Positions 4,754 through 22,533 of a stretch of 22,549 nt of DNA are shown here, one piece after another. The DNA comes from a virus. Within the stretch, counting starts at the first letter, position 1; each line of letters begins with the position of its first letter. Location: the IMG/VR virus record IMGVR_UViG_3300045135_002665, positions 1 through 22,549 of that record; one strand, written 5' to 3'. Both the position numbers and the translations under genes were made by a program. Under the pieces are notes generated by a model, which did not search any database, was not told the origin of the DNA, and worked only from the letters and a program-made list of their open reading frames with translations.

Positions 4754-4837
4754 CTGCTGTATCTAGCTCATCCAGAAGCGACCAAACTTCTGAACTCGCC
4801 TTAAAAATGACAGATTCTGTCTAAGAGTTAAAGTTAT

Positions 4838-6179: not shown

Positions 6180-6194
6180 ACGTTGCCCCAAAAA

Positions 6195-6233
6195 TTTTAC
6201 ACTAGGTTTTTACACTAGGTTTTTACACTAGGT
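6195..6233. repeat. Three tandem 13-bp repeats, left attP arm cluster
   Basis: There are three perfect copies of TTTTACACTAGGT at 6195-6207, 6208-6220 and 6221-6233. The unit is identical, and in the same orientation, in the right cluster at 6360-6398. The cluster lies between the integrase 1 start and the tRNA-like core, where integrase arm-type sites are expected. It contains the half-site TAGTG (minus strand) shared with the TAGTGCACTA operators; that link is speculative. Confidence 0.9.
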
Positions 6234-6359
6234 CAAGGATAAAACTCAGTAATAGTGGGTTTTAATGGGTTTTAGAAATTTTGGGGTAGTGTCCCGCTAC
6301 CCGCTCCAAGGATAAAAAATCACATAAAATCAATGGTTTAAGTAAAATCAGTGTTTCAT

Positions 6360-6398
6360 TTTTACACTAGGTTTTTACACTAGGTTTTTACACTAGGT
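6360..6398. repeat. Three tandem 13-bp repeats, right attP arm cluster
   Basis: Three perfect copies of TTTTACACTAGGT lie at 6360-6372, 6373-6385 and 6386-6398, identical to the left cluster. With the left cluster they give six sites of exactly 13-bp period around the tRNA-like core. They are probably integrase arm-binding sites, with a replication iteron array as an alternative. Confidence 0.9.
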
Positions 6399-6430
6399 GG
6401 TGCGTTTTTATTATAGAGTCAGCTTTAAAT

Positions 6431-6479: not shown

Positions 6480-6725
6480 CTAATCAGTATCTGTGTCGTC
6501 CGTATATACGCTCAGACCTACTTCGCCATGCAATGTCCCACTTGCATAATGCCCTTGGGACATATGGAGTTTCCAATCATCATTTGCGCCTGATGGCCGG
6601 ATCTCCAGTGGACAATTGTTTGCTCTAGCATCAATGAGCAGATCAATCAGATCGTCCAGTTGTGAGGGTGAAAACAGATACGAATGCGACTGCTCGTTTC
6701 GTACTATTTTCCTTATTGCATTCAT
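6480..6725 (-). CDS. Small unknown protein (81 aa)
   Basis: ATG 6725 is preceded by GAGG with 5-base spacing. A GTG two codons upstream is possible but lies within that site. The protein has a basic N-terminus (MNAIRKIVRNEQ), a leucine/aspartate-rich helix (SPSQLDDLIDLLIDARANN) and an acidic tail (YTDDTDTD). There is no membrane segment, cysteine motif or clear helix-turn-helix, and I do not recognise a family. It is alone between the attP region and the hairpin-rich gap, with a terminator 18 bases after its stop. Its place near attP makes an excision or regulatory role thinkable, but nothing in the sequence shows it. Confidence 0.7.
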   Translation of the reverse strand: MNAIRKIVRNEQSHSYLFSPSQLDDLIDLLIDARANNCPLEIRPSGANDDWKLHMSQGHYASGTLHGEVGLSVYTDDTDTD

Positions 6726-6734
6726 TATCACCTC

Positions 6735-7339: not shown

Positions 7340-7768
7340 TCACTTCACCTGTGCCAATAACGGGACCAAGGTCGTTGCACTAACCGGGATTGAAATACTG
7401 CGCTCATAGGGGTCAACTTTATTGGGTGTTGAAACGACATCTGCCGCTCGCACATTTCTGCTATGAACGTACATCGCATGTGTTTTGGCGCGATTAATTA
7501 TCAGAAACACACAATCTTGTTCTGCAAACTTCATTTTGCGCAGGGGCAGCAAAAGGGTGTCCCATGGGAAATCAGTGGTGGTCCATGAATCTCGTATTTC
7601 AACTTCACAAAGGAACTTACGACCCTGACCCTCAACAATCAGATCCACACCACATTCTTCTGGGTTTTCGCTGCAATCATACCCAAGCTTTTTCCAGAAC
7701 ATAATTCCCAGCGCCTTGGCGGGGCCATCAAACTCCGCCAATCGCTCTGGTTCAAACACCTTAGCCAT
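7340..7768 (-). CDS. Unknown protein, possible PD-(D/E)XK-like fold (142 aa)
   Basis: The start ATG 7768 overlaps the end of the RMF-like gene by 8 bases and has GGAAG at good spacing; a longer frame upstream would run through that gene and is rejected. The N-terminal half has a predicted helix (LAEFDGPAKALGIMFWKKLGY), then GVDLIVEG and KFLCEVEIRD. This recalls the D...ExK core of restriction-like nucleases (D42, E55, E57), but the usual lysine is missing, so activity is doubtful. The C-terminal half is beta-rich (DCVFLIINRAKTHAMYVHSRNV). It is the last gene of the operon, followed by the terminator at 7211-7238. The fold is a guess; the gene itself is well supported. Confidence 0.65.
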   Translation of the reverse strand: MAKVFEPERLAEFDGPAKALGIMFWKKLGYDCSENPEECGVDLIVEGQGRKFLCEVEIRDSWTTTDFPWDTLLLPLRKMKFAEQDCVFLIINRAKTHAMYVHSRNVRAADVVSTPNKVDPYERSISIPVSATTLVPLLAQVK

Positions 7769-7922
7769 ACTGGCGCTTCCGATTGTTGTCATAAGCGGTG
7801 TTCCAGCCTCGGTGCCACTCCCGTTCGTAGAATGAGCCTTTACGGTAGACGCACTCATCATTTGCGATGAATGCGTTGTAACCATGCTCGTAGGGTGTTT
7901 TTGCAGGGAATATCCGTTTCAT
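7761..7922 (-). CDS. RMF-like small protein (53 aa)
   Basis: ATG 7922 follows the RNR stop by two bases and has a GGGG ribosome binding site inside the RNR end. The 53-residue basic protein reads KTPYEHGYNAFIANDECVY...REWHRGWNTAYDN. This is the pattern of the ribosome modulation factor family: an early G-x-x-A element, a PY/VY-type turn and a C-terminal R-x-W-x-x-G-W-x-x-A. RMF binds near the 16S anti-Shine-Dalgarno region and drives 70S dimers and hibernation; small RMF-like proteins also occur in phages and alphaproteobacteria. Here it would be made together with RNR, late in the operon. The family match is by motif only, and binding to ribosomes is untested. Confidence 0.6.
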   Translation of the reverse strand: MKRIFPAKTPYEHGYNAFIANDECVYRKGSFYEREWHRGWNTAYDNNRKRQYG

Positions 7923-11006: not shown

Positions 11007-11860
11007 TACTGATCCTCAACGAACCAATACTTAGGCGGATTCTGCGCTTCCGATTTCGGATGGGCTTTGTATTCCGCATCAGGCCAGCAGGTCGCCAAGT
11101 AGGGGCAAAATTCGCATGTTTTGCACAGGTGCTTTAGCCCTGTGGGTTTACCGCGCCATTTGTCCTCAACAGGCTCAAAACTGCGTTGGAAGTGCGCCTT
11201 TGATGTGATCGCAGAAACCGTATCTTCGATTTTGTGCATGACAGACGATTGCTCATCTTCACCGCCTTCGAATTCAACGACCTTGATGCGACCAGTGCTT
11301 TTGCACATGACGATCCAACCGCCAGGCTCTTTGCCCTTGGCTTTTGCGTAGCCAACTAATTGACCAATGTACCCGAAATCATCGCTCTGTTTTAATCCCT
11401 CGTAGCCCTTTGACCATTTATTATTAAAGGCCCAAGGGGAGCAGGATTTAACGTCATAGACCTTGTCGTCTACCTCGACATCGTCAGTTCCATTGATGAT
11501 TGCATCTGCAATTTTCAGTGAAACTTTGTCGTTGCCGCCAGTGATATTGATCGCAGCGATCTTCATCAGCAGCAGAGTGATGATTTCAACACAATCGCCC
11601 AGCATCATTTGGGCGATGAAATTGTTTGGTTTGCGGACTGGTGCCGCACCCATCGCTTGCATTTGCAATTGGCATTTAGGTTTGCCAATGCTGCTCATGC
11701 GCAACGGATCTGAAGTGTCCGGAGGCTTGGTAAGTTGGTGGCGAAGCGCCGTTTTCAACGCTTCACCTGCCTCGTTGATCCATGCGTCCTGAACATCCAG
11801 TTGATCAAACTCCCGATTGGATAGTCGATCCGCTGTAAGTAGGAGCGTTGCCTCAAACAT
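11006..11860 (-). CDS. Cas4/RecB-type PD-(D/E)XK exonuclease with Fe-S cluster cysteines
   Basis: The 284-residue protein has the nuclease residues D126 (GTDD), D136-V-K138 (YDVKSCS) and the Q167-x-x-x-Y171 motif (QLVGY). One cysteine before the nuclease core (C63, GKPKC) and a cluster after it (C246, C249, C252, C258; LCKTCEFCPYLATCW) match the Cas4/AddB arrangement that holds a 4Fe-4S cluster and staples the ends of the domain. Such enzymes degrade or process DNA ends. In a phage this fits recombination, end resection or host DNA breakdown. The neighbouring SSB supports a recombination pair. No CRISPR array or cas1/cas2 is nearby, so a role in adaptation is not suggested. It starts in a TAATG overlap. 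Confidence 0.88.
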   Translation of the reverse strand: MFEATLLLTADRLSNREFDQLDVQDAWINEAGEALKTALRHQLTKPPDTSDPLRMSSIGKPKCQLQMQAMGAAPVRKPNNFIAQMMLGDCVEIITLLLMKIAAINITGGNDKVSLKIADAIINGTDDVEVDDKVYDVKSCSPWAFNNKWSKGYEGLKQSDDFGYIGQLVGYAKAKGKEPGGWIVMCKSTGRIKVVEFEGGEDEQSSVMHKIEDTVSAITSKAHFQRSFEPVEDKWRGKPTGLKHLCKTCEFCPYLATCWPDAEYKAHPKSEAQNPPKYWFVEDQ

Positions 11861-12714
11861 TAGGCAACGTCATCAAGATCGTCGTTGAGATCGTCATCCA
11901 AACTGTTGTTGATCGCATCTATCGCAGACTGATCGAGTGTTTGGCTCGATAGTGCCGCCTCGTATTGCTTTTTAATACGGGCGTTTTCCGCATTGATGCT
12001 ATCAGCGAAGTTTTTGATGTGACCCACCACTTCTTCATCCATCGCTAATGGATTTTTAAAATCCGGATGGAAGTTTATGACAAACCAAACCACAGATCCG
12101 TTTTTCTGGCGCTCTGCTTTCAGCTCAATGTTGAAATCCCAAGCATTACGACCGTTGGGCAGCATTTTCACAACCTGATCGTTGAACGGATTGAAGTTTG
12201 TGCCTTTGGCCATGATGATCGCAGGGATGTTTTTCCATTCAACAACGTCACCAGTTGCCGTTTTCGCCGTACCAGTAACAAGGACGCGAATTTTACGGAA
12301 ACAAGTGGTGTTTTTGTGGCGCTCTTGGTCCTCTGGGGACATTTCGCGCAACTGAGCGGATGTAGGCTTGCCACAACGGGTCGTTCCCTTTGTGTCTATC
12401 GCCTCCTGACCCCAATTTGCAATTTCCACTGACTTACAGGTGACCCGTTTTTCAGTGGGGTCATAAGTCATGTATTGGAAATGGTTTGAAAGTACCCGCA
12501 CCGTCACTGTTTGTGCGTATGCAGGTGTCTCACCATTCTTAATGGTAAAATGACCCCGGGGCAGGGGATTACCATCATCATCGTCTGCTTGTGAGTTGAC
12601 GACGAGCTGCGGAAGACGCATTGCGTTTTCGTTTGCAGCAGGTTTCGCAGTCGCACCCATCATAGACGCTAGTGAGTTCAGTTCTTGGCTTGTCGCCATG
12701 TCTTGTGTAGCCAT
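11860..12714 (-). CDS. Putative single-stranded DNA-binding protein (gp2.5-like)
   Basis: The protein is 284 aa with a soluble beta-rich body and a highly acidic tail (SLDDDLNDDLDDVA), the hallmark by which SSBs recruit polymerase and primase-helicase. The body has aromatic strands (VVWFVINFHPDF; AWDFNIELKAERQ) and a Cys pair about 22 residues apart (CGKPTS...NTTCF) that could bind a metal. The start is ATG 12714 with GAAAGG upstream; an in-frame ATG 23 codons earlier lies across the promoter region and is rejected. It is the first gene of the longest operon, behind the TAGTGCACTA operator and a TTGACA box. The identity comes from tail, size and context. A recombination-associated protein is possible. 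Confidence 0.75.
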   Translation of the reverse strand: MATQDMATSQELNSLASMMGATAKPAANENAMRLPQLVVNSQADDDDGNPLPRGHFTIKNGETPAYAQTVTVRVLSNHFQYMTYDPTEKRVTCKSVEIANWGQEAIDTKGTTRCGKPTSAQLREMSPEDQERHKNTTCFRKIRVLVTGTAKTATGDVVEWKNIPAIIMAKGTNFNPFNDQVVKMLPNGRNAWDFNIELKAERQKNGSVVWFVINFHPDFKNPLAMDEEVVGHIKNFADSINAENARIKKQYEAALSSQTLDQSAIDAINNSLDDDLNDDLDDVA

Positions 12715-12804: not shown

Positions 12805-12818
12805 TATAGTGCACTATA
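12805..12818. promoter_or_regulatory. Operator, TAGTGCACTA palindrome (SSB operon)
   Basis: TATAGTGCACTATA is a perfect 14-bp palindrome in the 120-bp gap between polymerase and SSB genes. A second degenerate copy (TTGTGCATTAA) follows at once. It sits 4 bp upstream of TTGACA, the same spacing as at integrase 2. Confidence 0.75.
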
Positions 12819-12834
12819 TTGTGCATTAAATTTA

Positions 12835-14922
12835 CTACAGAAGCCAGTTATTTCCGGCCTCGATTTCAATCGCCAAGGGTAGGGGGAATTTGTATGCCCA
12901 CTTATGCTCAACCTCCTTCAGAACACCCGTCATCGCCCATGTCAGGGCATCATGAACAAGGTCCTCTTCATCTGGATGCGTATCTACAACGATTGAATCA
13001 TGAACGGTCAGGATCAGGAGCGATTTCAGATCCAGTTCCTTGAACCTTCGGTAGGCTCGGACACAGGCCATTTGCACCAAATCATTCCCAAAGCCCTGAA
13101 CAGGGTAGTTCACCACTTGCGTTGCGTTACTGATCCGACCATTGCCGTAGCGTTTTGCGTTCGGCCAATGATACTGGCGCCCTGACGGTGTTTGAACGAT
13201 CCCATTACGGATCACACCATCCATCAGTGATTTCTGGTACTTCGCCAGGCCGCTGTAGATGACAAAAAACTGTTTGAAATAATTTTGCACATGCTCAGGT
13301 TCACCCATTCCCATGCCACCGTAGAGCGGGGCGAATGTGAATGCCTTGGCTGCCTGACGCAGGTCCTTTGTCACTGCGCTGGGATCAATGCGATTGATGA
13401 TTGAAGCGGTTTGGCTGTGTACGTCCTTACCGTTTTCGATGTCGTCCATGATCTGGTTGTCTAGTGATAGAGCGCCAGCGACCCTGAATTCCAACCCGCT
13501 AAAATCCGCTTCGGTAATGATCCCGCCGTCGAAACGGGAAACAACACATTTGCGGATTGGGAAACCCCGCTTGGGTTGGTTTTGAAAGTTGGGGTTAGAC
13601 GACGACAAGCGACCTGTAGCTGTCACACATTGATTGAAGTTGGTGTGCAGCAGGCCAGTTGGACGGGTCCAAGTTTGGATGCCTTTGACGAAACTGTCGA
13701 GGTACACCGAAACCGCATTTAATCGGCTGATTTTAGTCAAAAACTCAACTGCAAGATCGTTGCCTTTGTCCTGCGCTTGTGCGGTCAAAAGCTTGATGGT
13801 GGTTTTGTCACATTTGAACCCATTGATGCTCGCATCTGCTGGTCCAGATGGGACAAGCCTCAACCCAGCCGTAGCTTTTAACTGCTCGTAAAGAGCGCCT
13901 TTGCCTGAGCAGGTGGGGCAACGATTTTCGTTTTTGAACGGTTCGCCGTTCTTTTTAAACTTCCGAATTTTGCCCCGGCCATTGCAGGTTTCGCAGCACT
14001 TCGCTTGGGTTTTCTTCACCACTTGGGTGGTGCGTCTGACCGTATTGGCGAATTGTGTTTTGGACATCCTTGGAGGCCGCAGGGGCTTACCATTGGCGCC
14101 AATCCCAATATTAAACAAACGCTGATGCTCATGACGATCCACAACCATGCGGGAATACACAACCTTCGTCATATCCGCACCGCTATTTAAGTTAATGGGG
14201 GTATCGCCCATAACCTGTTCAACGATTTCGTTTAAACGTTTTTCCAGATCCGCTTTTTCGGCTGCAAACTCAGCCTCAACTTCAGACAGCGCAGTTAAAT
14301 CAACATTGATACCGTTGCGCTCCATCTCGATCAGGCACCGCATCATATCGTTGGATAAATCCAAAATGGAGTTGAGGGATGCGTTTGCCTCCAGCCCAAA
14401 ATCATCCAGTTGTTTCAGGTAAATTTCACCTGCGGCTTTTACGTCCGCCTCCGCATATTCCAGAACGGTTGCCAGTGGCATCGCTTCAAATCCTGTGCCG
14501 GATTTGAATAGGTCATCGACAAGATCACTTTGCTTGCGGGTTGTGTCCCGCCGTTCCGCAACAGCCTTCAGGGATAGTTCGCGTCTTTGACCTTTAGAAA
14601 GGACATATTCGCGCAACATTGTGCAATGCACTTGCGGGGGCAGGGTGAACCCCATTTCAGTAAGCCAAAGACTGTCGAATTTGCTATTATGGCAGATAAG
14701 GACATCTGCCTCCTTCAGGCACTCCTCCAATAGGCTGCGACAGTCAGGTTCTGGCTTTTCATTGTGGTGAAATACCAGTGAAAACACCTCATCGACCGTA
14801 TCCCAGCCCAAAAATCCAAAATGGGCTGAGACACAGCGATTATCTGGGTTGAACGGACTATTATCGAATTTTCCATCCATTTTCTGGACGGTTGTTTCAA
14901 GGTCCAACACTAACCGCTTCAT
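12835..14922 (-). CDS. polA: Family A DNA polymerase with DnaJ-type zinc insert
   Basis: This is the replicative polymerase, 695 aa. The 3'-5' exonuclease has ExoI LDLET (D7, E9), ExoII HNSKFD (N79, D83) and ExoIII YAEAD (D160). Polymerase motif A is DFSGLEFR (D473, E477), motif B RQAAKAFTFAPLYGG (R522, K526, F530, Y534) and motif C HDS (H641, D642). F530 aligns with E. coli Pol I F762. Between the two halves lies a zinc module of two DnaJ-like repeats, C310-x-x-C313-NGRG and C335-x-x-C338-SGKG, joined by a lysine-rich loop. This insert is the known oddity of HMO-2011-type phage polymerases. The ATG overlaps the helicase stop (ATGA). No terminator was seen after the gene, so reading through into the SSB operon is possible. 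Confidence 0.96.
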   Translation of the reverse strand: MKRLVLDLETTVQKMDGKFDNSPFNPDNRCVSAHFGFLGWDTVDEVFSLVFHHNEKPEPDCRSLLEECLKEADVLICHNSKFDSLWLTEMGFTLPPQVHCTMLREYVLSKGQRRELSLKAVAERRDTTRKQSDLVDDLFKSGTGFEAMPLATVLEYAEADVKAAGEIYLKQLDDFGLEANASLNSILDLSNDMMRCLIEMERNGINVDLTALSEVEAEFAAEKADLEKRLNEIVEQVMGDTPINLNSGADMTKVVYSRMVVDRHEHQRLFNIGIGANGKPLRPPRMSKTQFANTVRRTTQVVKKTQAKCCETCNGRGKIRKFKKNGEPFKNENRCPTCSGKGALYEQLKATAGLRLVPSGPADASINGFKCDKTTIKLLTAQAQDKGNDLAVEFLTKISRLNAVSVYLDSFVKGIQTWTRPTGLLHTNFNQCVTATGRLSSSNPNFQNQPKRGFPIRKCVVSRFDGGIITEADFSGLEFRVAGALSLDNQIMDDIENGKDVHSQTASIINRIDPSAVTKDLRQAAKAFTFAPLYGGMGMGEPEHVQNYFKQFFVIYSGLAKYQKSLMDGVIRNGIVQTPSGRQYHWPNAKRYGNGRISNATQVVNYPVQGFGNDLVQMACVRAYRRFKELDLKSLLILTVHDSIVVDTHPDEEDLVHDALTWAMTGVLKEVEHKWAYKFPLPLAIEIEAGNNWLL

Positions 14923-16139
14923 GACGAATACCGCGATACTGCAGGCTCAATCAGGACGGGGATCGTTCCATGATAGCCGCTCAATTTGTTTTTACTGATG
15001 GTCAGGAACCGGGTGTTATCCGGTGCGCCATCTTCGTTGTCGCCGCTGTGTTTACCAATGCCAATGATGAGATCAGCTTCGGCAGCTTTGCCCGTTTTGG
15101 ACCCTTCAGCCATGCTGAAATCCACTCGCGTTTTGCCTTCAGCGTCTGCAGATGCCTGCGATATACCGATCAATGCACATTGATGTCGTTTGGCCAATTC
15201 CCGCAGGCGTCGATAGAGTTCCCTGAACCGCTCATGCGTAGCGTTGTAGTGCCCAGACACCCCAACTTTGTCGGCCTGGTCGATGACCAATACATCGGGT
15301 TTCATCTTACGACAGTACCCGTCAATACGATCCAAATCCCAATCTACGACATCCTTCATCTCAAGATTGTCTTTGGCGCAGAAGAACGATTTTACGGCTC
15401 GTTTTGGGTCTGCAATGACCTCATGAATATCCATACCCGCTGCGGCTTGATAGGCCCTCAGCATTGTGCGCTCTGTATCTTCTTCGTTTCCGAGGTAGAT
15501 CACTTTCGCGCCTTGATCGCAGAAGCCGCCGGGGCCAGCCATGAGGGATACCAAAAAGGCGGTTTTACCAGTCTCTGGCCGAGCCAAAAGTACCATGAAC
15601 TCACCCGGGCCAATTCCATAGACGGCACTGCTGAGGGAGTTGATGTTAAACTGCCAGCGCGATCCATTAGAGGCTCGTTTAAGCAGGGCAGGGAGGTCCT
15701 TTGTGGTCGTAGGACCGAAATCGTCCGGCATGTAGTTTTCACCAATGCGCTCGATTAACGATTGCAATAAATTAAAAGCGGAATGGTCACCCTCTGACAA
15801 GTTGATGCCAAGGTTTGTGATTTCGCGTCCGATTTCCTTCTGCCAGAGCTTTTTAATGACATCTTGAGCGACATCTGAACTGATGGCATTCGATTTTTCG
15901 ATGTCATCGATTAGATCGCGGAAATCTGCTTTTTCGGTGTTTGTTGCAACTGGATGATCAGCAATCCAAAGAGAATATAGGTCTTCGGATGTCAGATCAT
16001 GTTCGTATTTTGCATGTGCCAGACCCAAAATATCATACAGGTCTGCAGCGTCATCTGAAAACAAGCTGCGCTTCAGGCGAGCCTTGTTTGATTTGTAGCT
16101 GTCATGGGACAGCAGTGTTTTTAGCAATTGTGTTTCCAT
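14919..16139 (-). CDS. Replicative DNA helicase, RecA-fold (DnaB / T7 gp4 type)
   Basis: It unwinds the replication fork. The C-terminal RecA-like domain has a DnaB-style Walker A ARPETGKT (186-193), an acidic strand YLGNEED with the likely catalytic glutamate, Walker B VLVIDQAD (D287) and a sensor ISQAS (Q328). An arginine/lysine-rich end (ISKNKLSGYHG) follows. The first 150 residues are helical and lack zinc or TOPRIM motifs, so primase is a separate protein, unlike T7 gp4. I chose METQ (ATG 16139), which has GGAG 6 bases upstream; a start 10 codons earlier would lie in the operator. At 406 aa it has the normal length for phage helicases. The gene is followed by polA in an ATGA overlap, so fork enzymes are made together. 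Confidence 0.93.
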   Translation of the reverse strand: METQLLKTLLSHDSYKSNKARLKRSLFSDDAADLYDILGLAHAKYEHDLTSEDLYSLWIADHPVATNTEKADFRDLIDDIEKSNAISSDVAQDVIKKLWQKEIGREITNLGINLSEGDHSAFNLLQSLIERIGENYMPDDFGPTTTKDLPALLKRASNGSRWQFNINSLSSAVYGIGPGEFMVLLARPETGKTAFLVSLMAGPGGFCDQGAKVIYLGNEEDTERTMLRAYQAAAGMDIHEVIADPKRAVKSFFCAKDNLEMKDVVDWDLDRIDGYCRKMKPDVLVIDQADKVGVSGHYNATHERFRELYRRLRELAKRHQCALIGISQASADAEGKTRVDFSMAEGSKTGKAAEADLIIGIGKHSGDNEDGAPDNTRFLTISKNKLSGYHGTIPVLIEPAVSRYSS

Positions 16140-16158
16140 CACTTCTCCATAATGCAGA

Positions 16159-16174
16159 ATATAGTGCACTATAT
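16159..16174. promoter_or_regulatory. Operator, TAGTGCACTA palindrome (helicase-polymerase unit)
   Basis: ATATAGTGCACTATAT is a perfect 16-bp palindrome whose near edge is about 20 bases before the helicase ATG. It must overlap the core promoter or leader, unlike the sites upstream of a -35 box. It lies directly after the terminator of the preceding unit. Confidence 0.75.
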
Positions 16175-16184
16175 ATTGTGAGGA

Positions 16185-16218
16185 GGAAAAAATAAAGCCC
16201 CATATCAGGATGGAGCTT
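16185..16218 (-). terminator. Terminator of the primase unit
   Basis: On the minus strand AAGCTCCAT pairs with ATGGGGCTT (9 bp with one G-U; 16195-16203 and 16210-16218), followed by TATTTTTTCC. It lies 28 bases after the stop of the 383-residue gene and just before the next operator. Confidence 0.8.
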
Positions 16219-16245
16219 CACTTTTTACGAAATGATAGGGGAGGT

Positions 16246-17397
16246 TTAAGAGCGGGTAGTAAATCCTACCTCATTACCTTCCTTCCAGAGTCTGTCGAGT
16301 TCTTCTTGCGCTACTCCTTCAGCAGTAAAGACTTCTTCAGCATCTACCGGGTTTCCGTTTTCATCGCGCAAGCTTCTGATCCAAGGTAGCTTCTTTTTCA
16401 TTTCTAAAGAACCCTTACGATTTGTCCCCATCGCTTTGAATAAGGTGGTCAGCTCTGCAGTTGTGACATGAAATTTCCCAGTATCGACTGTCAGGCGATA
16501 GTTTTTGCCTTTTTTGGTTTTGATATCGACGACCTTCTCGCGGACAACCATTTTGCCACCTTCCGATGCGATCACTTTGGATTTATCAATGGGTTCAAGG
16601 TCGCCTTCTGCGTTAATCTCCAAACCATCGTCTGCAAGTTTTTCTTCAAGCTGCTTCATGTGCCGCTGCTGTGCTTCGGTGTCCCCGGCGCCAAGCTTGG
16701 TCTCTACATAGTCTCGATAACGCTTGGCTTGCTCTTCGGGCATGAAATCCGAAGCCATGATTTCCCAATCGGCTAAGTCGTTCGATATGCCTTTTAGGTC
16801 TCCCAACACAAATTTTCGTTGGATTTCGATATGCAATGGATCGTTCGTCTCGTCGTACTCATAATCCAATTGCAAACCGCGAAGTGTACGAAGAAAGCGA
16901 TAGTAGATGTCATCCATACCACCGGAATATGCCAGCGTCTGATTTTTTACTGAGCGCAAGCGCCCATTTTCTTCATCCATATAAAAGCCTTGCTTATCAG
17001 CCATATGCATGAGTTTGTTAAACAACTTTTTATCTTCGCCCTTAAGCCCAGCTCTTGGATCGCTGTTGAAGTTTTCCTCTGACCACTTCTTTTTCCATAG
17101 CTCTTCAAGGCGTACGAATTGTGACTTGGACATTTTTTCATTGGCGCCGCGGCCACCCCGGAATGTGATGTTTTTAATATCACCTGTAGATCCGCGACGG
17201 TCCTGCAGTTCAGCCTGGATAGGTTCATCACTACTACCTGATGCAGTGATTTTTGCTTCAGGTAGTTCAGCATTCATTTTACGCGCAATGTCTTCGGCAG
17301 CCTCTTTCCATAGCTGTTCGAGGCGGGCGACAGTTTGGAATGAACCATCCACCTCAAAATCCGCAACCATTACACCTCGGTATTGCTTTCTAGCCAT
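16246..17397 (-). CDS. Unknown phage protein between primase and helicase (383 aa)
   Basis: ATG 17397 has GAGGAG ten bases upstream; a GTG six codons earlier abuts the primase stop and is the alternative. The protein is soluble, lysine/glutamate-rich and apparently mixed alpha/beta. Two repeated-looking helices, ARLEQLWKEAAEDIARK (near 30) and VRLEELWKKKWSEENF (near 100), are followed by a third similar one at the end (EELDRLWKEG), suggesting internal repetition. A central segment (YYRFLRTLRGLQLDYEY) precedes a coiled-coil-like region (EAQQRHMKQLEEKLADDG) and a beta-rich part (KMVVREKVVDIKTKKGKNYRL). No known motif was found. Its operon with primase suggests a replication accessory or structural role that I cannot name. 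Confidence 0.75.
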   Translation of the reverse strand: MARKQYRGVMVADFEVDGSFQTVARLEQLWKEAAEDIARKMNAELPEAKITASGSSDEPIQAELQDRRGSTGDIKNITFRGGRGANEKMSKSQFVRLEELWKKKWSEENFNSDPRAGLKGEDKKLFNKLMHMADKQGFYMDEENGRLRSVKNQTLAYSGGMDDIYYRFLRTLRGLQLDYEYDETNDPLHIEIQRKFVLGDLKGISNDLADWEIMASDFMPEEQAKRYRDYVETKLGAGDTEAQQRHMKQLEEKLADDGLEINAEGDLEPIDKSKVIASEGGKMVVREKVVDIKTKKGKNYRLTVDTGKFHVTTAELTTLFKAMGTNRKGSLEMKKKLPWIRSLRDENGNPVDAEEVFTAEGVAQEELDRLWKEGNEVGFTTRS

Positions 17398-17415
17398 AAC
17401 CGTTTCGCTCCTCAC

Positions 17416-18207
17416 TCATCCCAATTCTTTATTGTTCATTATTAGGGATTGTATTTGTTTTACCGTTAGCTCTTTCAGGTCGGTATTTGTGACCCGTACG
17501 GAAACATTGCCTCTTAATTGCCTCGTTAGTGCGACAGCTTTAGATGCTGCATCATTGTCTAGTACGATATATGATTTATCGTATGACTGTAAAGCATTTT
17601 TTAGTGCACTAGTTATTGTAGTGCCCAGTAATGCAACGCCTGTGTAATCGCTTATTCTGGCGATTGAGCAGGCGGATGCGGCGTCTTCTACAACAATTGC
17701 AGTGCGCCCTGTGCCGACATGGATACCAGAGCTTGTGTCACCGTAGGTCATCCATTTTGGTGTGCCGCGCTCAAGCAAGCGCCCAACTGCTCCGGTCTGA
17801 TCGCGGTTGAAAAACAGAACGCGATTTTCCTTTGGCGCATATCTAATCCGGATCAGGCCTTTTTCGGCTGCTTCGACGGAGTTGACGGATGCCAGGTATT
17901 GGCGCACCGGAGCATAGTTGAACGGATCACCGGTAATTTTAGGGATAGGGTAACCGCCAGTCTTGCGTTTGGTGTTGTCATCACCAGCAAGGTAGGCTTT
18001 GGCGCCGTTAATTGATCTTTGGCCATTGTAACATCCCTTGGCAGTACAGGAGGCGCGAAAGCAATTCCATAAGATGGTACCGGACACAAGGTGTGAGATT
18101 GTGAATTTTTTGTGACCACCGCAGAACGGACAATCAATCGTCCTGTGTTCACCTTCAGGCACTCGTACCTGTTTCACTGTGTTGAGTTGTTCACCATATG
18201 AAAACAT
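17416..18207 (-). CDS. DNA primase (zinc ribbon + TOPRIM, T7 gp4 N-half type)
   Basis: It makes RNA primers for lagging-strand synthesis. The N-terminal zinc ribbon has C26-x-x-C29 and C49-x4-C54. The TOPRIM-like core shows E174-D175 (AIVVEDAASA) and D217-x-D219 (YIVLDNDAAS), the metal-binding acidic residues, in the order seen in T7-type primases. At 263 aa it lacks the fused helicase half of T7 gp4; that function is the separate gene downstream. ATG 18207 has an AGGTGAG ribosome binding site. It opens its own unit behind the 16-bp palindrome at 18243-18258. A further exact TAGTGCACTA lies inside the coding region at 17602-17611. Confidence 0.9.
   Translation of the reverse strand: MFSYGEQLNTVKQVRVPEGEHRTIDCPFCGGHKKFTISHLVSGTILWNCFRASCTAKGCYNGQRSINGAKAYLAGDDNTKRKTGGYPIPKITGDPFNYAPVRQYLASVNSVEAAEKGLIRIRYAPKENRVLFFNRDQTGAVGRLLERGTPKWMTYGDTSSGIHVGTGRTAIVVEDAASACSIARISDYTGVALLGTTITSALKNALQSYDKSYIVLDNDAASKAVALTRQLRGNVSVRVTNTDLKELTVKQIQSLIMNNKELG
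17602..17611. promoter_or_regulatory. Intragenic copy of the TAGTGCACTA palindrome
   Basis: This is an exact 10-bp copy inside the primase coding sequence (codons for ITSALKN), 205 bases before the start of the 383-residue gene. It is not extended beyond 10 bp, unlike three of the intergenic copies. It could serve as an internal or auxiliary operator, or be a chance match. Confidence 0.4.
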
Positions 18208-18242
18208 TTTCTCACCTGTTAACCCTCATGGTCCTGAAAAAT

Positions 18243-18258
18243 CCTTAGTGCACTAAGG
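18243..18258. promoter_or_regulatory. Operator, TAGTGCACTA palindrome (primase unit)
   Basis: CCTTAGTGCACTAAGG is a perfect 16-bp palindrome 36 bases before the primase ATG and 37 bases after the preceding terminator. No good -35 box lies beside it, so it probably overlaps its promoter. Confidence 0.75.
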
Positions 18259-18294
18259 TCTATGGTCTCCTGAAAACTTGTTACTGTGTGATGT

Positions 18295-18331
18295 AAAAAG
18301 CCCCACCAGCCTGGAGAAAAACTGGTGGGGC
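18295..18331 (-). terminator. Terminator of the DUF932-like unit
   Basis: The perfect 10-bp stem GCCCCACCAG/CTGGTGGGGC (18300-18309, 18322-18331) is followed on the minus strand by TTTTTACATC. It lies 61 bases after the stop of the YubB-like gene and separates this unit from the primase operator. Confidence 0.88.
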
Positions 18332-18391
18332 AGGGATGCCCTCAACGCTGGGAAGGAGAGGAAAACCAGCGGAGAGCGGTGGTGCAGTTGG

Positions 18392-18841
18392 TCAAGCTGC
18401 AGTCAACCGATCATAGTCGTAGGTCTCTTCAAAGATCGCTACGATTTCGTCTGGCAGTTCGTCGATATGATACGATTGGTTTTCGCCATCGATATATTTG
18501 CCCCCATACTCAAGCCCACCAGTGGACAGGTAATATGCAATCACCATCAACCCCTGATCGATCAGTTCATCGTAGGCTCCGAGGGGTGCCGCCCATGGGG
18601 ATTCAAATTGCATCTCCAGGCCATACCAATTTTCACCAAGATTGCCTGCGTCATAGAGCAGGGGTTCTTTGTCTTGAACATCCCAACTAGTGCCCCAGGT
18701 GTCGTTGGCGCTCTTCGTCGCCTCCTTCGACAGTGGTTTGATTGTTTGCAACAGGGTTCGATCCCTTGCGGCTTGCGCTAGGATCGCAAGATTGTCGTAT
18801 GGTCCCCAGACCGTTAAAATATTATCAACCATTGATGGCAT
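18392..18841 (-). CDS. YubB / Api92-like ferredoxin-fold protein (DUF1281 type, 149 aa)
   Basis: The start ATG 18841 has GGAGG upstream and overlaps the zinc-ribbon gene by 17 bases; a longer frame upstream is rejected. The sequence follows the YubB/Api92 pattern: an N-terminal MVDNILTVWGPYDNLA, a middle NDTWGTSWDVQD, then an aromatic strand with W/P (MQFESPWAAPL), a helix, and a strand ending in GLEYGGKYIDGENQSYHI. Members are found on plasmids and phages and have a ferredoxin-like fold, with no clear biochemical role. It is the last gene of a three-gene unit with a DUF932-like protein and a zinc ribbon, then a strong terminator. Confidence 0.72.
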   Translation of the reverse strand: MPSMVDNILTVWGPYDNLAILAQAARDRTLLQTIKPLSKEATKSANDTWGTSWDVQDKEPLLYDAGNLGENWYGLEMQFESPWAAPLGAYDELIDQGLMVIAYYLSTGGLEYGGKYIDGENQSYHIDELPDEIVAIFEETYDYDRLTAA

Positions 18842-19019
18842 AACGCGTACCTCCGTTTGAAGTGTGTGATGTAGGGGCATCGCAGCCCCCACAATAAACA
18901 GTGGATTGATCCCAATACGCTGCGGCGGTGTTTGCCCAATGCTGACGCATTTTGAAAAACACTCGGTTAGATCCGCAGTTTGGGCAGTTGTGGCGGGCGT
19001 ATCCTGCAAACTTTTTCAT
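18825..19019 (-). CDS. Small zinc-ribbon protein (64 aa)
   Basis: Two CxxC knuckles are visible: C12-x-x-C15 (HNCPNCGSNR) and C43-x-x-C46 (VYCGGCDAPT), with 27 residues between, a typical zinc ribbon of about 64 residues. The start is fixed by a TAATG overlap with the upstream DUF932-like gene. It is basic at the N-terminus and probably binds nucleic acid or a partner protein. A transcription-related role is possible but not shown. It is one of few small proteins here that could be a regulator. Confidence 0.75.
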   Translation of the reverse strand: MKKFAGYARHNCPNCGSNRVFFKMRQHWANTAAAYWDQSTVYCGGCDAPTSHTSNGGTRYAING

Positions 19020-20047
19020 TACGCTGCACTCCGTCCGTAGAAGAAGTGTGTCATGACAAGTTTGGCCACCTGGCTTTGACGGATTGCCAATGTCTCAGCA
19101 ACGTTGTCTTCAGCCTCTGAGTTGCGTACAGGGAATGCATCGTCATCAGTGCAGAAGCTGGCTAGGCCAGACATCACCGCAAATTTGCTTTTGCCGTAAT
19201 ACTGAACCTCTTCATCAAAGATGTGATCGCAAATTTTAACCGCTTCATTTTCGGACAGCATGCGCCCTTTGCCCATCATCAGAGCTAACTCTACCTGCTC
19301 ATGGGTAACGGATGTTTTCATCATCTGTTGCAGGCAATCAATGCGCTCCGCAAATTTGCCGTTCACCCACTCACCGATGTGATCAATGATGGCCTGTGCG
19401 TTCCAAGCCCCTTTGTGGCGCTGCGCTATGCTTGATGAAACACCCAGATTGATCAGGTTTCCGCTGTCTAAATCGCGCGCTCCGATGCAAACTTGAGTGG
19501 ATAACTTCAGATCGTTTTTCCAGCTCACATTGAGACCAAGATTGGTTTTGCCCGTACCGTTTGCAATTTCAAAGCTGTACCCCGGGATGTCGATCATGCA
19601 CTGGCTAAATGCGCCACTGCGTCCAGCAAATCCCTTCATTTCATGTCCTACAAGAAATGAGGGGGGTAGGGCGGCTTCTAGGCCCGCCAATGTAGCGTTG
19701 TGGCATTGCTCATTATCAATGATGCGATACCAATCTGAACTGACCGCGTCCAATACATCCATAGTCTCTGGATTAATGATGTAGGCATCTGGGACGCCTC
19801 TCTTTTTAGGGACAAAACGAGTAAGGCGGGTGCCTGGAATGCGCCAAACTGCTTCGGTCATAGCAAGTTTGAAATCCAATCCTGTTTCGCTGAATGGCAT
19901 CCAATCAACTTTCGCTGATAGGTCCTCGTCTGTCTGAAGAAAGAAAAATTCTTCCGCACTCATCACATCTTCGTTGTGCTGAAGATTAAGTGCCTTCGTA
20001 AGTGCTTCTGCTGCTGCGAAGTCTTGTTGCTTAGTATGTGTCGTCAT
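19019..20047 (-). CDS. DUF932-like phage/plasmid protein (342 aa, tentative)
   Basis: ATG 20047 has AGGA eight bases upstream; an earlier ATG five codons before has no such site. The protein has the outline of DUF932 / TIGR03299 phage-plasmid proteins: an N-terminal segment before a strand of the type DWYRIIDNEQCHNATLAGLEAAL, a GFAGRSGAFSQCMIDI stretch like the family's G-rich turn, and a helical C-terminal half. There are no catalytic or DNA-binding motifs that I can name. The function of the family is unknown. It heads a unit with a zinc ribbon and a YubB-like protein, a set also reminiscent of plasmid accessory genes. The coding call is sure; the family is moderate. Confidence 0.6.
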   Translation of the reverse strand: MTTHTKQQDFAAAEALTKALNLQHNEDVMSAEEFFFLQTDEDLSAKVDWMPFSETGLDFKLAMTEAVWRIPGTRLTRFVPKKRGVPDAYIINPETMDVLDAVSSDWYRIIDNEQCHNATLAGLEAALPPSFLVGHEMKGFAGRSGAFSQCMIDIPGYSFEIANGTGKTNLGLNVSWKNDLKLSTQVCIGARDLDSGNLINLGVSSSIAQRHKGAWNAQAIIDHIGEWVNGKFAERIDCLQQMMKTSVTHEQVELALMMGKGRMLSENEAVKICDHIFDEEVQYYGKSKFAVMSGLASFCTDDDAFPVRNSEAEDNVAETLAIRQSQVAKLVMTHFFYGRSAA

Positions 20048-20109
20048 TTGGTTTCCTAACATATTTTGTTTCGATTTCTGGATGAGCTAGATACTGATCC
20101 ATGACCATC

Positions 20110-20137
20110 AACATAGACATCATAAAGCTACTGTCAA
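20110..20137 (-). promoter_or_regulatory. Candidate promoter of the DUF932-like unit
   Basis: TTGACA (20137-20132) with TATGTT (20115-20110) at 16-base spacing forms a good sigma-70-type promoter. The operator core ends 13 bp upstream of the -35 box, about one helical turn further than at SSB and integrase 2. Confidence 0.6.
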
Positions 20138-20150
20138 GCCATCGCTTACC

Positions 20151-20160
20151 TAGTGCACTA
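20151..20160. promoter_or_regulatory. Operator, TAGTGCACTA palindrome (DUF932-like unit)
   Basis: An exact 10-bp copy of the palindrome in the gap between the integrase 2 unit terminator (20217-20246) and the DUF932-like gene, upstream of a TTGACA/TATGTT promoter. Confidence 0.7.
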
Positions 20161-20216
20161 TAAAAAATCGTAAAAAATTGATTAAAACCCCAATAAAATA
20201 TGAAAAATATGCCCTG

Positions 20217-20246
20217 AAAAAAATTTAGGAGGCATTTCGCCCCCTA
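20217..20246 (-). terminator. Terminator of the integrase 2 unit
   Basis: On the minus strand TAGGGGGC pairs with GCCTCCTA (8 bp with one G-T; 20226-20233, 20239-20246), followed by AAATTTTTTT. It begins within the last codons of the 45-residue gene. Confidence 0.85.
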
Positions 20247-20381
20247 GGTTTTGCGATACTTCTCGCGATGCACTTGCCGCAGATATAAGGCCTCTTGATG
20301 CAATTTTCGCAAAAGTTCCTCTTCTGGGTCTCGCAGTTTGTTTAAACGGTCCAGCGATGCAGGACGCTGTATATTACCCAT
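20244..20381 (-). CDS. Small basic helical protein downstream of integrase 2 (45 aa)
   Basis: ATG 20381 overlaps the end of the integrase 2 gene by 8 bases and has GAGGTG just upstream. The 45 residues are highly charged (LDRLNKLRDPEEELLRKL, then ALYLRQVHREKYRKT) and should form two amphipathic helices. No family is recognised, and it lacks a clear winged-helix or helix-turn-helix excisionase pattern. Co-translation with the integrase suggests a directionality factor or partner of integrase 2, which is inference from position only. Its end overlaps the terminator stem. Confidence 0.6.
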   Translation of the reverse strand: MGNIQRPASLDRLNKLRDPEEELLRKLHQEALYLRQVHREKYRKT

Positions 20382-21453
20382 GCGCCACCTCGCTGTAGTT
20401 AGCCCGTTTTTGCTGTGCGCGTTCCGCCATGGTGGTGGATGGTAACACATAGGTGCTAATGACCTGACGAGACCGATGTCCAGTGATGGTTCGGATTTCA
20501 TCCTCTGTGCATCCGCTATCGCCGAGCATGGATGCGCCACTACGGCGAAGGTCTGAAACTTTCAGGTCATCAGGCAGTCCGGCCAATTTGCGAATGTGAT
20601 CTGCTTTTTTGCGCAGAAGGCGCTCGCTGAAAGGCTCACCACTGCGCTCATATATAATAATGTGTGCGTCTGGGTTCTGATTAGACGCAGCCCGCAGTTG
20701 CTCAATGCGAACCTTTAAGTGATCAGGCGCAGGTATTCTGATGGCGGTGCCAGTTTTGGCTTGAGTGAAAGTAAAGCTACCGCTGTTATAATTGCTCCAA
20801 CGCATTTCGCGACAATCTACAGGGCGCTGACACAGCTCATAGGCCATCGAGGCGAGTGTGCCGAGACTTGCCATGCCATTTGCATCGGCTGTTGTAACAA
20901 ATGTTCTAACATCACTGTCTGACCATCTGGTTGTGCGGGCAGGGGGTGTTGTTAGTTCAATGGAGCCAAATGGATTGCGGTTGATCAGTTCCAAGCGAGT
21001 TGCGTTGCTGAAAACCACAGAAAGCAGCTTCATGATACCCAGCGCATGATGTTCTGAGTATTGTGATGCAATCGCTGAGTATAGCTGCTCTGCATCCATA
21101 ACTTTAAAGTCATTGACGGATCTGCCGCCCATGATCTTTTGTGCAGCCTGCATGTTGCTCATGTAAGTGCGCTGACTTTTGGGTTTGAGCTTGCGCCACT
21201 TGCTTGAGGTCACATAGGCATCCCAAAGAGTGCAGAAAGTCATGCATTGATCGACCCGAATGTGGGTCTCGCCAGCTTTGAAGGCTTTGAAGGCTTCATC
21301 AGCGGCGATTGCAGCATTGATGGCACTGATCCTGTCATCAAATTGCTGGTACTTGTATCCAAGCTTGTCCCGCAGGGTTTTGCTTGGATCGAAGGCATAA
21401 ACCTCCCGTCCATTTGGTAAGGTTTTGTGCCGGAAATGTTTGATATTGGTCAT
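20374..21453 (-). CDS. Tyrosine recombinase / phage integrase 2
   Basis: A second, unrelated-looking integrase of 359 aa. The N-terminal part has an arm-binding-like segment (TLPNGREVYAFDP...KYQQF) and a core-binding helical domain (CTLWDAYVTSSKWRKLKPKSQRTY). The catalytic part shows R210 (CQRPVDCREMRW), K233 (QAKTGTAIRI), R303 (SDLRRSGASML), H326 (GHRS) and Y335 (STYV). The usual HxxR box is S300-D-L-R, so the first histidine is replaced by serine; this position tolerates change in some members. ATG 21453 has GGAG at 6 bases. It lies under a TAGTGCACTA operator and a TTGACG/TATCGT promoter shared in design with the replication operons, so it is probably expressed early. No tRNA-like core or repeats lie beside it. 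Confidence 0.93.
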   Translation of the reverse strand: MTNIKHFRHKTLPNGREVYAFDPSKTLRDKLGYKYQQFDDRISAINAAIAADEAFKAFKAGETHIRVDQCMTFCTLWDAYVTSSKWRKLKPKSQRTYMSNMQAAQKIMGGRSVNDFKVMDAEQLYSAIASQYSEHHALGIMKLLSVVFSNATRLELINRNPFGSIELTTPPARTTRWSDSDVRTFVTTADANGMASLGTLASMAYELCQRPVDCREMRWSNYNSGSFTFTQAKTGTAIRIPAPDHLKVRIEQLRAASNQNPDAHIIIYERSGEPFSERLLRKKADHIRKLAGLPDDLKVSDLRRSGASMLGDSGCTEDEIRTITGHRSRQVISTYVLPSTTMAERAQQKRANYSEVAHG

Positions 21454-21481
21454 TGGTCGCTCCGACTAGATACAGACTGAT

Positions 21482-21510
21482 ACGATATGCTTTTAGATGC
21501 CATTCGTCAA
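21482..21510 (-). promoter_or_regulatory. Candidate promoter of the integrase 2 unit
   Basis: TTGACG (21510-21505) and TATCGT (21487-21482) with a 17-base spacer. The operator core lies 4 bp upstream of the -35 box, exactly as at the SSB promoter. The region from 21454 to 21774 holds no gene; it contains this promoter, the operator, an AT-rich stretch and the leader of the plus-strand gene. Confidence 0.6.
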
Positions 21511-21514
21511 CGGC

Positions 21515-21524
21515 TAGTGCACTA
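21515..21524. promoter_or_regulatory. Operator, TAGTGCACTA palindrome (integrase 2 unit)
   Basis: An exact 10-bp copy in the divergent control region, 4 bp upstream of TTGACG. A degenerate copy (AAGTGCACAA, 21657-21666) lies about 140 bp away, nearer the plus-strand gene. Confidence 0.75.
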
Positions 21525-21710
21525 TAAATTCTCGATAGCATCGAAAATTACTCGCGCGTCAAGCGCATAATAACACAATATATATGGATAAAATGAAATT
21601 CAGCTTTAGAATTTATACCACATAGAGTCTGCAGTAAAAAAATACTATACAATAATAAGTGCACAATAAAATTCTTGTTTTACTGCTCAAAATCATGGGA
21701 TTCTTTCGTC

Positions 21711-21746: not shown

Positions 21747-21774
21747 TTTGTATCTAGCGAAAGGAGGCCCCAAA

Positions 21775-22533
21775 ATGGGCTACATTAATCTGACTCTAAA
21801 ATCTCGAAATCAAAAAGTAGGCAAAGTTCCTGTATCTACATCCGGCAAACAAACTTGCCCGGACACCTGCCCATTAAAAGAGAGCGGCGCATGTTATGCC
21901 GATGGTGGTCCGCTTTCATTATTTTGGGAAAAGGTGACAAAAGAACAAGCCGGGACCGACTATAACAGTTTTGTTGATGCTGTCCGGGGTTTGCCTGATG
22001 GGCAGTTTTGGCGTCACAATCAAGCCGGGGATTTAGCACCCACAAAAAGGGACCCCAACACAATCGACGCACCCGCACTTGTGAAATTGGTAGAAGCCAA
22101 CAAGGGCAAAATGGGCTTCACATTCACCCATTACGACCCCATCAAAAACTTGATGAACGAGTTTGCAATTCATACTGCAAACAAAAACGGATTTACGATC
22201 AATCTATCCGGCAACAATGTTTTCCATGCTGATGAACTGGCAAAGACAAAATGCGGTCCGGTGGTTTCCGTATTGCCGCTTGAATACCAACGCCAGGGCA
22301 AAGGGAAAGAATTCACAGAAAGCCTGGACGCATACAAAGCAAGGCTGGCGGATCTGCCCAAAACGACACCCGCAGGCAATCGCATTGTTATATGCCCGGC
22401 CACCTATAATGAGAATATGTCCTGCAATGATTGCCGCTTATGTGCAAAGGCCAACCGCAAGACAATCGTCGGCTTTCCTGCTCATGGCAGATCAAAACGC
22501 AAAGCGGACGCAATTGCGCAGGAGGTGGCGTAA
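21775..22533 (+). CDS. Cysteine-rich phage protein of the DUF7227 type (252 aa)
   Basis: ATG 21775 is chosen over an ATG nine codons earlier because AAAGGAGG stands just upstream of it. The N-terminus carries a cysteine cluster (KQTCPDTCPLKESGACYADGG) and the C-terminus a second (ICPATYNENMSCNDCRLCAK) followed by IVGFPAHGRSKRKA. The middle is rich in aromatic and His residues (FWRHNQAGDL; FTFTHYDP). Proteins of this look recur in phages and plasmids of proteobacteria and resemble the Gp37/Gp68 (DUF5131) group, which has a radical-SAM-like barrel; the cysteines could hold an Fe-S cluster or zinc. The function is unknown. It leads a plus-strand unit divergent from integrase 2. Confidence 0.75.
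   Translation: MGYINLTLKSRNQKVGKVPVSTSGKQTCPDTCPLKESGACYADGGPLSLFWEKVTKEQAGTDYNSFVDAVRGLPDGQFWRHNQAGDLAPTKRDPNTIDAPALVKLVEANKGKMGFTFTHYDPIKNLMNEFAIHTANKNGFTINLSGNNVFHADELAKTKCGPVVSVLPLEYQRQGKGKEFTESLDAYKARLADLPKTTPAGNRIVICPATYNENMSCNDCRLCAKANRKTIVGFPAHGRSKRKADAIAQEVA

Follow-up and report, generated by a model that had tools for sequence, protein, structure and literature searches.

The 22.5-kb virus record IMGVR_UViG_3300045135_002665 (hereafter the window; all coordinates are positions in it) contains the early region of an HMO-2011-type phage, in which a 10-letter palindrome, TAGTGCACTA, recurs at the control regions of the early genes. This palindrome probably serves as the operator in a regulon of early genes and would be recognized by a dimeric, class-specific regulator that is most likely phage-encoded and most likely an immunity repressor. 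Related phages hold the positions of these sites and exchange their sequence in concert (TAGTGCACTA, CYAATATATTRG, TTACACTAAC). Dispersed operator sets and immunity classes are already known from other phages; new here are the occurrence of such a system in HMO-2011-type phages, its promoter-bound palindromic form, a conserved intragenic site, and the absence of a recognizable repressor. This phage group, which ranks with the most abundant viruses of the sea, includes members that integrate. In the papers that were searched, no description of a lysogeny switch or early regulator was found for it.

Copies of the palindrome in the window

TAGTGCACTA is present in exactly six copies, starting at 12807, 16162, 17602, 18246, 20151, and 21515, which bears out the coordinates and the rarity reported in the initial annotation. 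Its expectation under a dinucleotide shuffle is 0.00; 0 of 100 shuffles reached six copies, and none contained any copy. It is the most frequent palindromic 10-mer of the window, threefold ahead of all others (two copies at most), and a search of the window for one-mismatch variants found none. Three copies extend, as had been described, to longer perfect palindromes of 14 bp (12807), 16 bp (16162), and 16 bp (18246). Five of the six copies lie in control regions of minus-strand early units, and the sixth lies within the primase gene. In a k-mer test on the control windows, 5/5 contained the motif, compared to a null maximum of 3. The annotation had every minus-strand operon start marked by the palindrome, a slight overstatement: it applies to the five control regions, but not to the minus-strand recombinase gene int2 (4878 to 6191) or the minus-strand genes at 6480 to 6731 and 7340 to 7885, which have no site. 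The sites are as follows.

21515 to 21524: copy upstream of the recombinase gene int1, 4 bp upstream of TTGACG-17-TATCGT (21510 to 21482, minus strand)
20151 to 20160: copy upstream of the gene for a 347-amino-acid (aa) protein, 13 bp upstream of TTGACA-16-TATGTT (20137 to 20110, minus strand)
18246 to 18255: copy upstream of the primase gene, within the 16-bp perfect palindrome CCTTAGTGCACTAAGG, 23 bp upstream of a weak promoter-like TTAACA-18-TATGGT (18222 to 18193)
17602 to 17611: copy inside the primase gene, codons ACT AGT GCA CTA, where a promoter-like sequence faces the downstream gene
16162 to 16171: copy in the control region of the helicase gene, part of a 16-bp palindrome and overlapping a predicted −10 element (TATAGT/TATATT)
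12807 to 12816: copy in the gap between the polymerase gene and a gene resembling that of a single-stranded DNA-binding protein (SSB), part of a 14-bp palindrome and 4 bp upstream of TTGACA (promoter-like sequence, 12802 to 12774)
21657 to 21666: imperfect copy, AAGTGCACAA, near the divergent promoter of the DUF7227 gene

Homologues place the helicase start at the ATG at 16139 and that of the SSB-like gene at the ATG at 12714, so the sites at 16162 and 12807 both lie upstream of their genes.

Conservation and concerted replacement in related phages

A scan of related phages, as the annotation had proposed, recovered the motif in two of them. Locus L001 (7.4 kb), about 91% identical to the window at the DNA level over the alignable part, has four copies of TAGTGCACTA, and all four sites that it covers are kept, including 18246 and also 20151, although the bases flanking the latter differ. 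No changes were found in 40 site columns, compared to 17 in 320 flanking columns; with a P of about 0.11, this difference is weak alone and no more than suggestive. Scanning for the 14-bp form uncovered G4 (contig IMGVR_UViG_3300021197_001923), a phage of 55,110 bp whose genes are arranged as in the window and whose shared early proteins are only 25 to 81% identical. G4 has six copies of TAGTGCACTA, located upstream of the genes for DUF7227, int1, the 347-aa homologue, the helicase, and the SSB-like protein, and inside the primase gene at the same codons. Five of these, including the primase-internal one, are at places equivalent to those in the window, and the copy upstream of DUF7227 is perfect. 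An additional one-mismatch place lies beyond int2.

TAGTGCACTA is absent from approximately 0.97 Mb of other related phage DNA (an upper figure, as some loci overlap), and in none of these loci does another palindromic 10-mer occur more than twice. A search with the 14-mer AACTAGTGCACTAA for further phages carrying the motif, referred to here as class A, returned G4 and L001 only. Of the 30 sequences retrieved with TATAGTGCACTATA, only L001, L037/L049 (one phage), and L052 have the 10-mer more than once or belong to the group, and a helicase-profile scan of genome contigs gave one distant match. L052 is an unrelated contig of 38% G+C, in which three TAGTGCACTA copies (925, 1180, and 1486) stand in spaced repeats together with seven AGTGCACT.

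The motif is also absent from G1 (IMGVR_UViG_3300033183_000442; 58,856 bp), one end of which is locus L003, although its polymerase and ribonucleotide reductase (RNR) are 91% and 98% identical to those of the window. Another motif occupies the orthologous positions in this class B phage: the palindrome AATATATT, embedded in CYAATATATTRG, is found upstream of int1, the helicase gene, and the SSB-like gene, and inside the primase gene at homologous codons. In L003/L002, AATATATT is the sole palindromic 8-mer present in 4/4 orthologous windows. All four copies in the 20.6-kb locus fall in these windows, and 0 of 20,000 random or shuffled trials reached 4/4; the G1 contig has a fifth copy near its opposite end. 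At the position of the helicase site, L001 and G4 carry the same motif as the window, L003 carries CCAATATATT, and L004 carries TTACACTAAC. At that of the 12807 site, the same motif is found in G4, CTAATATATTAG in L003, and GTTAGTGTAA in L006. In the L004-L006 lineage, four control regions (those of DUF7227, the helicase, the SSB-like gene, and the 347-aa homologue) contain TTACACTAAC with no more than one mismatch. With weaker statistics, CCAATACAATA-like sequences in L009 and TTA(A/G)GTG-type sequences in the CRP phages occur at similar places.

The motif class tracks neither gene phylogeny nor the phage backbone and follows a swapped early block. In DUF7227, polymerase, RNR, and late genes, the window is far nearer to G1 than to G4, yet it has its motif in common with G4; RNR and late-gene proteins are 95 to 98% identical between the window and G1, and the motifs are entirely different. 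The int2 proteins are 55% identical between the window and G4 and 42% between the window and G1. The best reading of this concerted exchange, by analogy with heteroimmune phages, is probably that of specificity classes. The sites would then predict which phages are mutually immune and present a case in which a whole dispersed operator set, one member lying inside a coding sequence, has been replaced in concert.

The primase-internal copy is accompanied by a promoter-like TTTACA-18-TATCGT at 17593 to 17564. Its geometry is identical in the window, G4, and L003 despite the different palindromes, which stand 8 bp upstream of TTTACA-18-TAT(C/A)(G/T)T in each. This points to a putative internal promoter for the following gene, in a sequence that is partly under coding constraint too. 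Judged by sequence comparison, the primase-internal copy is a conserved control site and no stray copy.

The initial annotation had proposed a phage-wide regulon under a dimeric regulator. For the early region this idea is well supported by the equivalent sites in G4, the exact conservation in L001, the absence of the motif from the approximately 0.97 Mb of relatives, and the promoter-like sequences. It had foreseen neither a control site within the primase gene nor the concerted replacement.

Mode of control and candidate regulators

In the proposed mechanism, a dimeric regulator would bind TAGTGCACTA at the promoters of int1, the 347-aa gene, the primase gene, the helicase gene, and the unit running from the SSB-like gene to RNR. 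The same regulator would also bind the internal primase promoter and, in G4, additionally that of DUF7227, so that one protein could silence or time the whole early program. We infer promoter activity, dimeric binding, a phage-encoded regulator, and repression over activation; the repressor role in particular is suggested by promoter geometry and the prophage state. A repressor fits best because the sites cover early promoters, including overlap with a −10 element, because the lineage is temperate, and because the class-specific replacement parallels heteroimmune phages such as the cluster A mycobacteriophages (PMC6550527). The G1 contig ends in a host-like pobA homologue, with a tRNA-Gly(gcc) gene near the host-side end. 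G1 is apparently a prophage, and the arrangement suggests the tRNA gene as its attachment gene. CRP-3, also of the HMO-2011 type, has been shown to integrate into its host (PMC6918029).

Sigma-70-like sequences are found at nearly all sites, with scores mostly in the top 0.3 to 7% of the local background. The helicase sites overlap the predicted −10 element in classes A, B, and C, and the related motif of the CRP relatives lies in the −35/−10 spacer; both positions are typical of repression. The remaining sites lie 4 to 26 bp upstream of −35, those of int1, the 347-aa gene, and the SSB-like gene tending to sit just upstream of it. The main rival explanation holds that a phage protein, for example an Ogr/Delta-like 64-aa zinc-ribbon protein encoded at 18825 to 19019, binds upstream of −35 and turns on early or middle promoters. 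Several site centers do lie about 9.5 bp upstream of −35 (int1 and SSB in the window and the 347-aa gene in G4), a class-II-like geometry. In addition, the zinc-ribbon gene belongs to an early unit with its own site, co-occurs solely with the class A motif, and encodes a protein with a weak Ogr/Delta match. Against such activation stand the −10 overlap, the spacer position in the CRP relatives, and a spacing that ranges from −68 to −10, and we regard it as rather unlikely.

Several observations weigh against an operator bound by an immunity repressor. The promoters are predictions, and the score null only partly allows for A+T-rich intergenic DNA. The predicted promoters of the G4 SSB and DUF7227 genes are not outstanding (0.07 and 0.2 of the null), and some sites lie well upstream of −35, with centers at about −55 to −68, which are activator-type positions too. 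Class A is known from three phages, and the motifs of classes C and D show less symmetry than those of A and B. Furthermore, no CI- or LexA-like gene was recognized in the window, as had been noted before, or in G1 and G4, using Pfam and PHROGs and reading the small open reading frames of G1 and G4.

The annotation had left the regulator either elsewhere in the phage or among host proteins. If the genome has the usual 53 to 59 kb, over half of it lies outside the window, and the regulator may be located there. A host transcription factor, with each phage carrying the version suiting its own host, would accord with the lack of a recognized repressor gene and with early operons whose promoter-like sequences are of the host sigma-70 type. 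The near identity of RNR and late proteins between the window and G1, with entirely different motifs, and the tracking of classes with the swapped early block rather than the backbone make this distinctly improbable. The primase-internal control site and the concerted motif replacement favor a phage-encoded, class-specific reader over a fixed host protein. Use of the sites in DNA transactions (replication, partition, or recombinase binding) instead of transcription is very improbable. The phage has two tyrosine recombinases, and int2 has its own TAGTG-containing 13-bp repeats, but these form a separate attP-like array. Moreover, the palindromes are at promoters and unclustered, and int1 is less similar between the window and G4 (42%) than between the window and G1 (46%), even though the window and G4 share the motif.

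The int1 identities also led to rejection of int1 as the reader of the motif. DUF7227, RNR, MazG-like, and late genes are unlikely specificity determinants, being 95 to 98% identical between the window (class A) and G1 (class B). As a class marker, the gene that follows primase was dismissed, since its extra C-terminal part is hardly common to the window and G4. The only gene of the window that tracks class A is that of the zinc-ribbon protein: every class A phage carries it, and by tblastn it is missing from B, C, and D. Among 2.9 million viral contigs scanned, only L001 and G4 contained relatives; L004 has a weak zinc ribbon, 19% identical, at the same place. The Pfam matches of the protein, to Lar (8.8e-5) and Ogr/Delta (0.038), are both below the cutoff, the latter (PF04606) with 14.3 bits compared to a gathering cutoff of 26.3, so the protein is not assigned to that family. 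Its AlphaFold model was poor (pLDDT of 60) and was not used. It is a tentative and rather doubtful candidate for reading TAGTGCACTA, as a very small non-helix-turn-helix (HTH) regulator swapped together with all operators; if so, a 64-aa protein would set the immunity class in a large marine phage group. The sites themselves define the exact DNA baits and point mutations with which the regulator could be sought. In temperate relatives (L028, 485 to 1172; L004, 1853 to 2618), a 107- to 132-aa gene followed by an HNH-like gene lies between DUF7227 and the terminase genes; reading this pair by eye revealed no repressor domain.

The lambda CI/Cro operators are palindromic dimer sites overlapping early promoters, with three adjacent operators at two promoters. 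The present sites resemble them in being palindromes at early promoters but differ in that one site per unit is spread over 9 kb, and no CI/Cro gene or CI/Cro-type HTH domain was found in the scanned genes of the window. The alphaproteobacterial LexA/SOS box has the consensus GTTCN7GTTC, which TAGTGCACTA lacks. The cluster A mycobacteriophage repressor/stoperator system (L5 and Bxb1; PMC6550527, PMC9283540) is similar in having many copies of one short site genome-wide (here six in the window, six in G4, and four in L001) and relatives with their own version of the site that separates heteroimmune groups (here L003/L002 and L006, with different cognate sites at the same positions). However, stoperators are 13-bp, asymmetric, one-oriented sites, about 30 per genome and mostly away from promoters (PMC6550527, PMC9283540), whereas here about six 10-bp perfect palindromes lie almost all at promoters. 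The system was therefore not filed as a stoperator system. The HMO-2011-type roseophages CRP-3, CRP-212, and CRP-235 (PMC9038755, PMC6918029) share gene order, a DnaJ-insert polymerase, and an integrase; the TTA(A/G)GTG-type motif specific to their lineage, found in several of the control regions within the −35/−10 spacer, differs and is non-palindromic. The searched parts of these two papers make no mention of a control motif or repressor. A literature search for the 10-mer gave unrelated matches only. The 22-bp palindromic site of Rv3334 (MerR family) of Mycobacterium tuberculosis contains the same core, CTAGTGCACTAG (PMC6177252), but the organism is unrelated and no MerR gene was seen here; the likeness is probably a coincidence.

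Genes and repeats of the window

Besides a DnaJ-insert PolA, a DnaB-like helicase, and a primase, the window carries a Cas4-like exonuclease, RNR, MazG-like genes, and two tyrosine recombinases. Its closest named relatives are the Roseobacter phages CRP-235, CRP-3, CRP-212, and CRP-738; a megablast search of the early region against named phages gave no match, nor did Rfam. The translated polymerase has a partial DnaJ insert with both CXXCXGXG motifs, the hallmark used to place it in the HMO-2011 type, and is 37 to 63% identical to the CRP and HMO-2011 polymerases. The genes around the sites are listed below.

21748 to 22533, plus strand: DUF7227 gene (PF23872, 3.5e-83), divergent from int1
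20374 to 21453, minus strand: int1, early tyrosine recombinase (PF00589, 4.6e-12)
19019 to 20062, minus strand: 347-aa protein, no assigned function, 25 to 29% identical to relatives
18825 to 19019, minus strand: 64-aa zinc-ribbon protein, candidate regulator, weak Lar and Ogr/Delta matches
17416 to 18207, minus strand: DNA primase (phrog_47, 6e-21)
16246 to 17397, minus strand: gene that follows the primase-internal site, with its N-terminal domain conserved and its C terminus variable
14919 to 16139, minus strand: DnaB-like helicase (phrog_19, 1.8e-51), start taken from homologues
12835 to 14922, minus strand: HMO-2011-type DNA polymerase with DnaJ-like CXXCXGXG insert
11860 to 12714, minus strand: putative SSB with acidic tail, whose gene opens the exonuclease-to-RNR unit, start taken from homologues

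The SSB was assigned by position and tail alone, and family searches gave no match for it or for the 347-aa protein. The gene at 16246 to 17397, which separates primase from helicase, has a short N-terminal domain (RRG..FR) that is retained among relatives, and its C-terminal part ranges from none to about 300 aa.

The two recombinases lie at 20374 to 21453 (int1) and 4878 to 6191 (int2); the int2 of G1 is oppositely oriented relative to the early genes. Beside int2, two arrays at 6195 to 6246 and 6360 to 6411, each with three direct repeats of 13 bp (CCTAGTGTAAAAA, minus strand), enclose about 115 bp containing TTGGAGCGGGTAGCGGGA, resembling an attP site with arm repeats. In G4, this core is flanked by another repeat (ACCTAGGTATAAA). 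A second motif, around GTATCTAGCTCATCCAGAAGCGACCAAA, recurs, complete or partial, in a number of untranslated leaders of the window, at 4759 to 4786 (plus strand), 20094 to 20076 (minus), 21473 (minus), 21750 (plus), 12757 (minus), and 6921 (minus). G1 has another leader repeat, TTATCCAGCGAACCGA, which is exact at two places.

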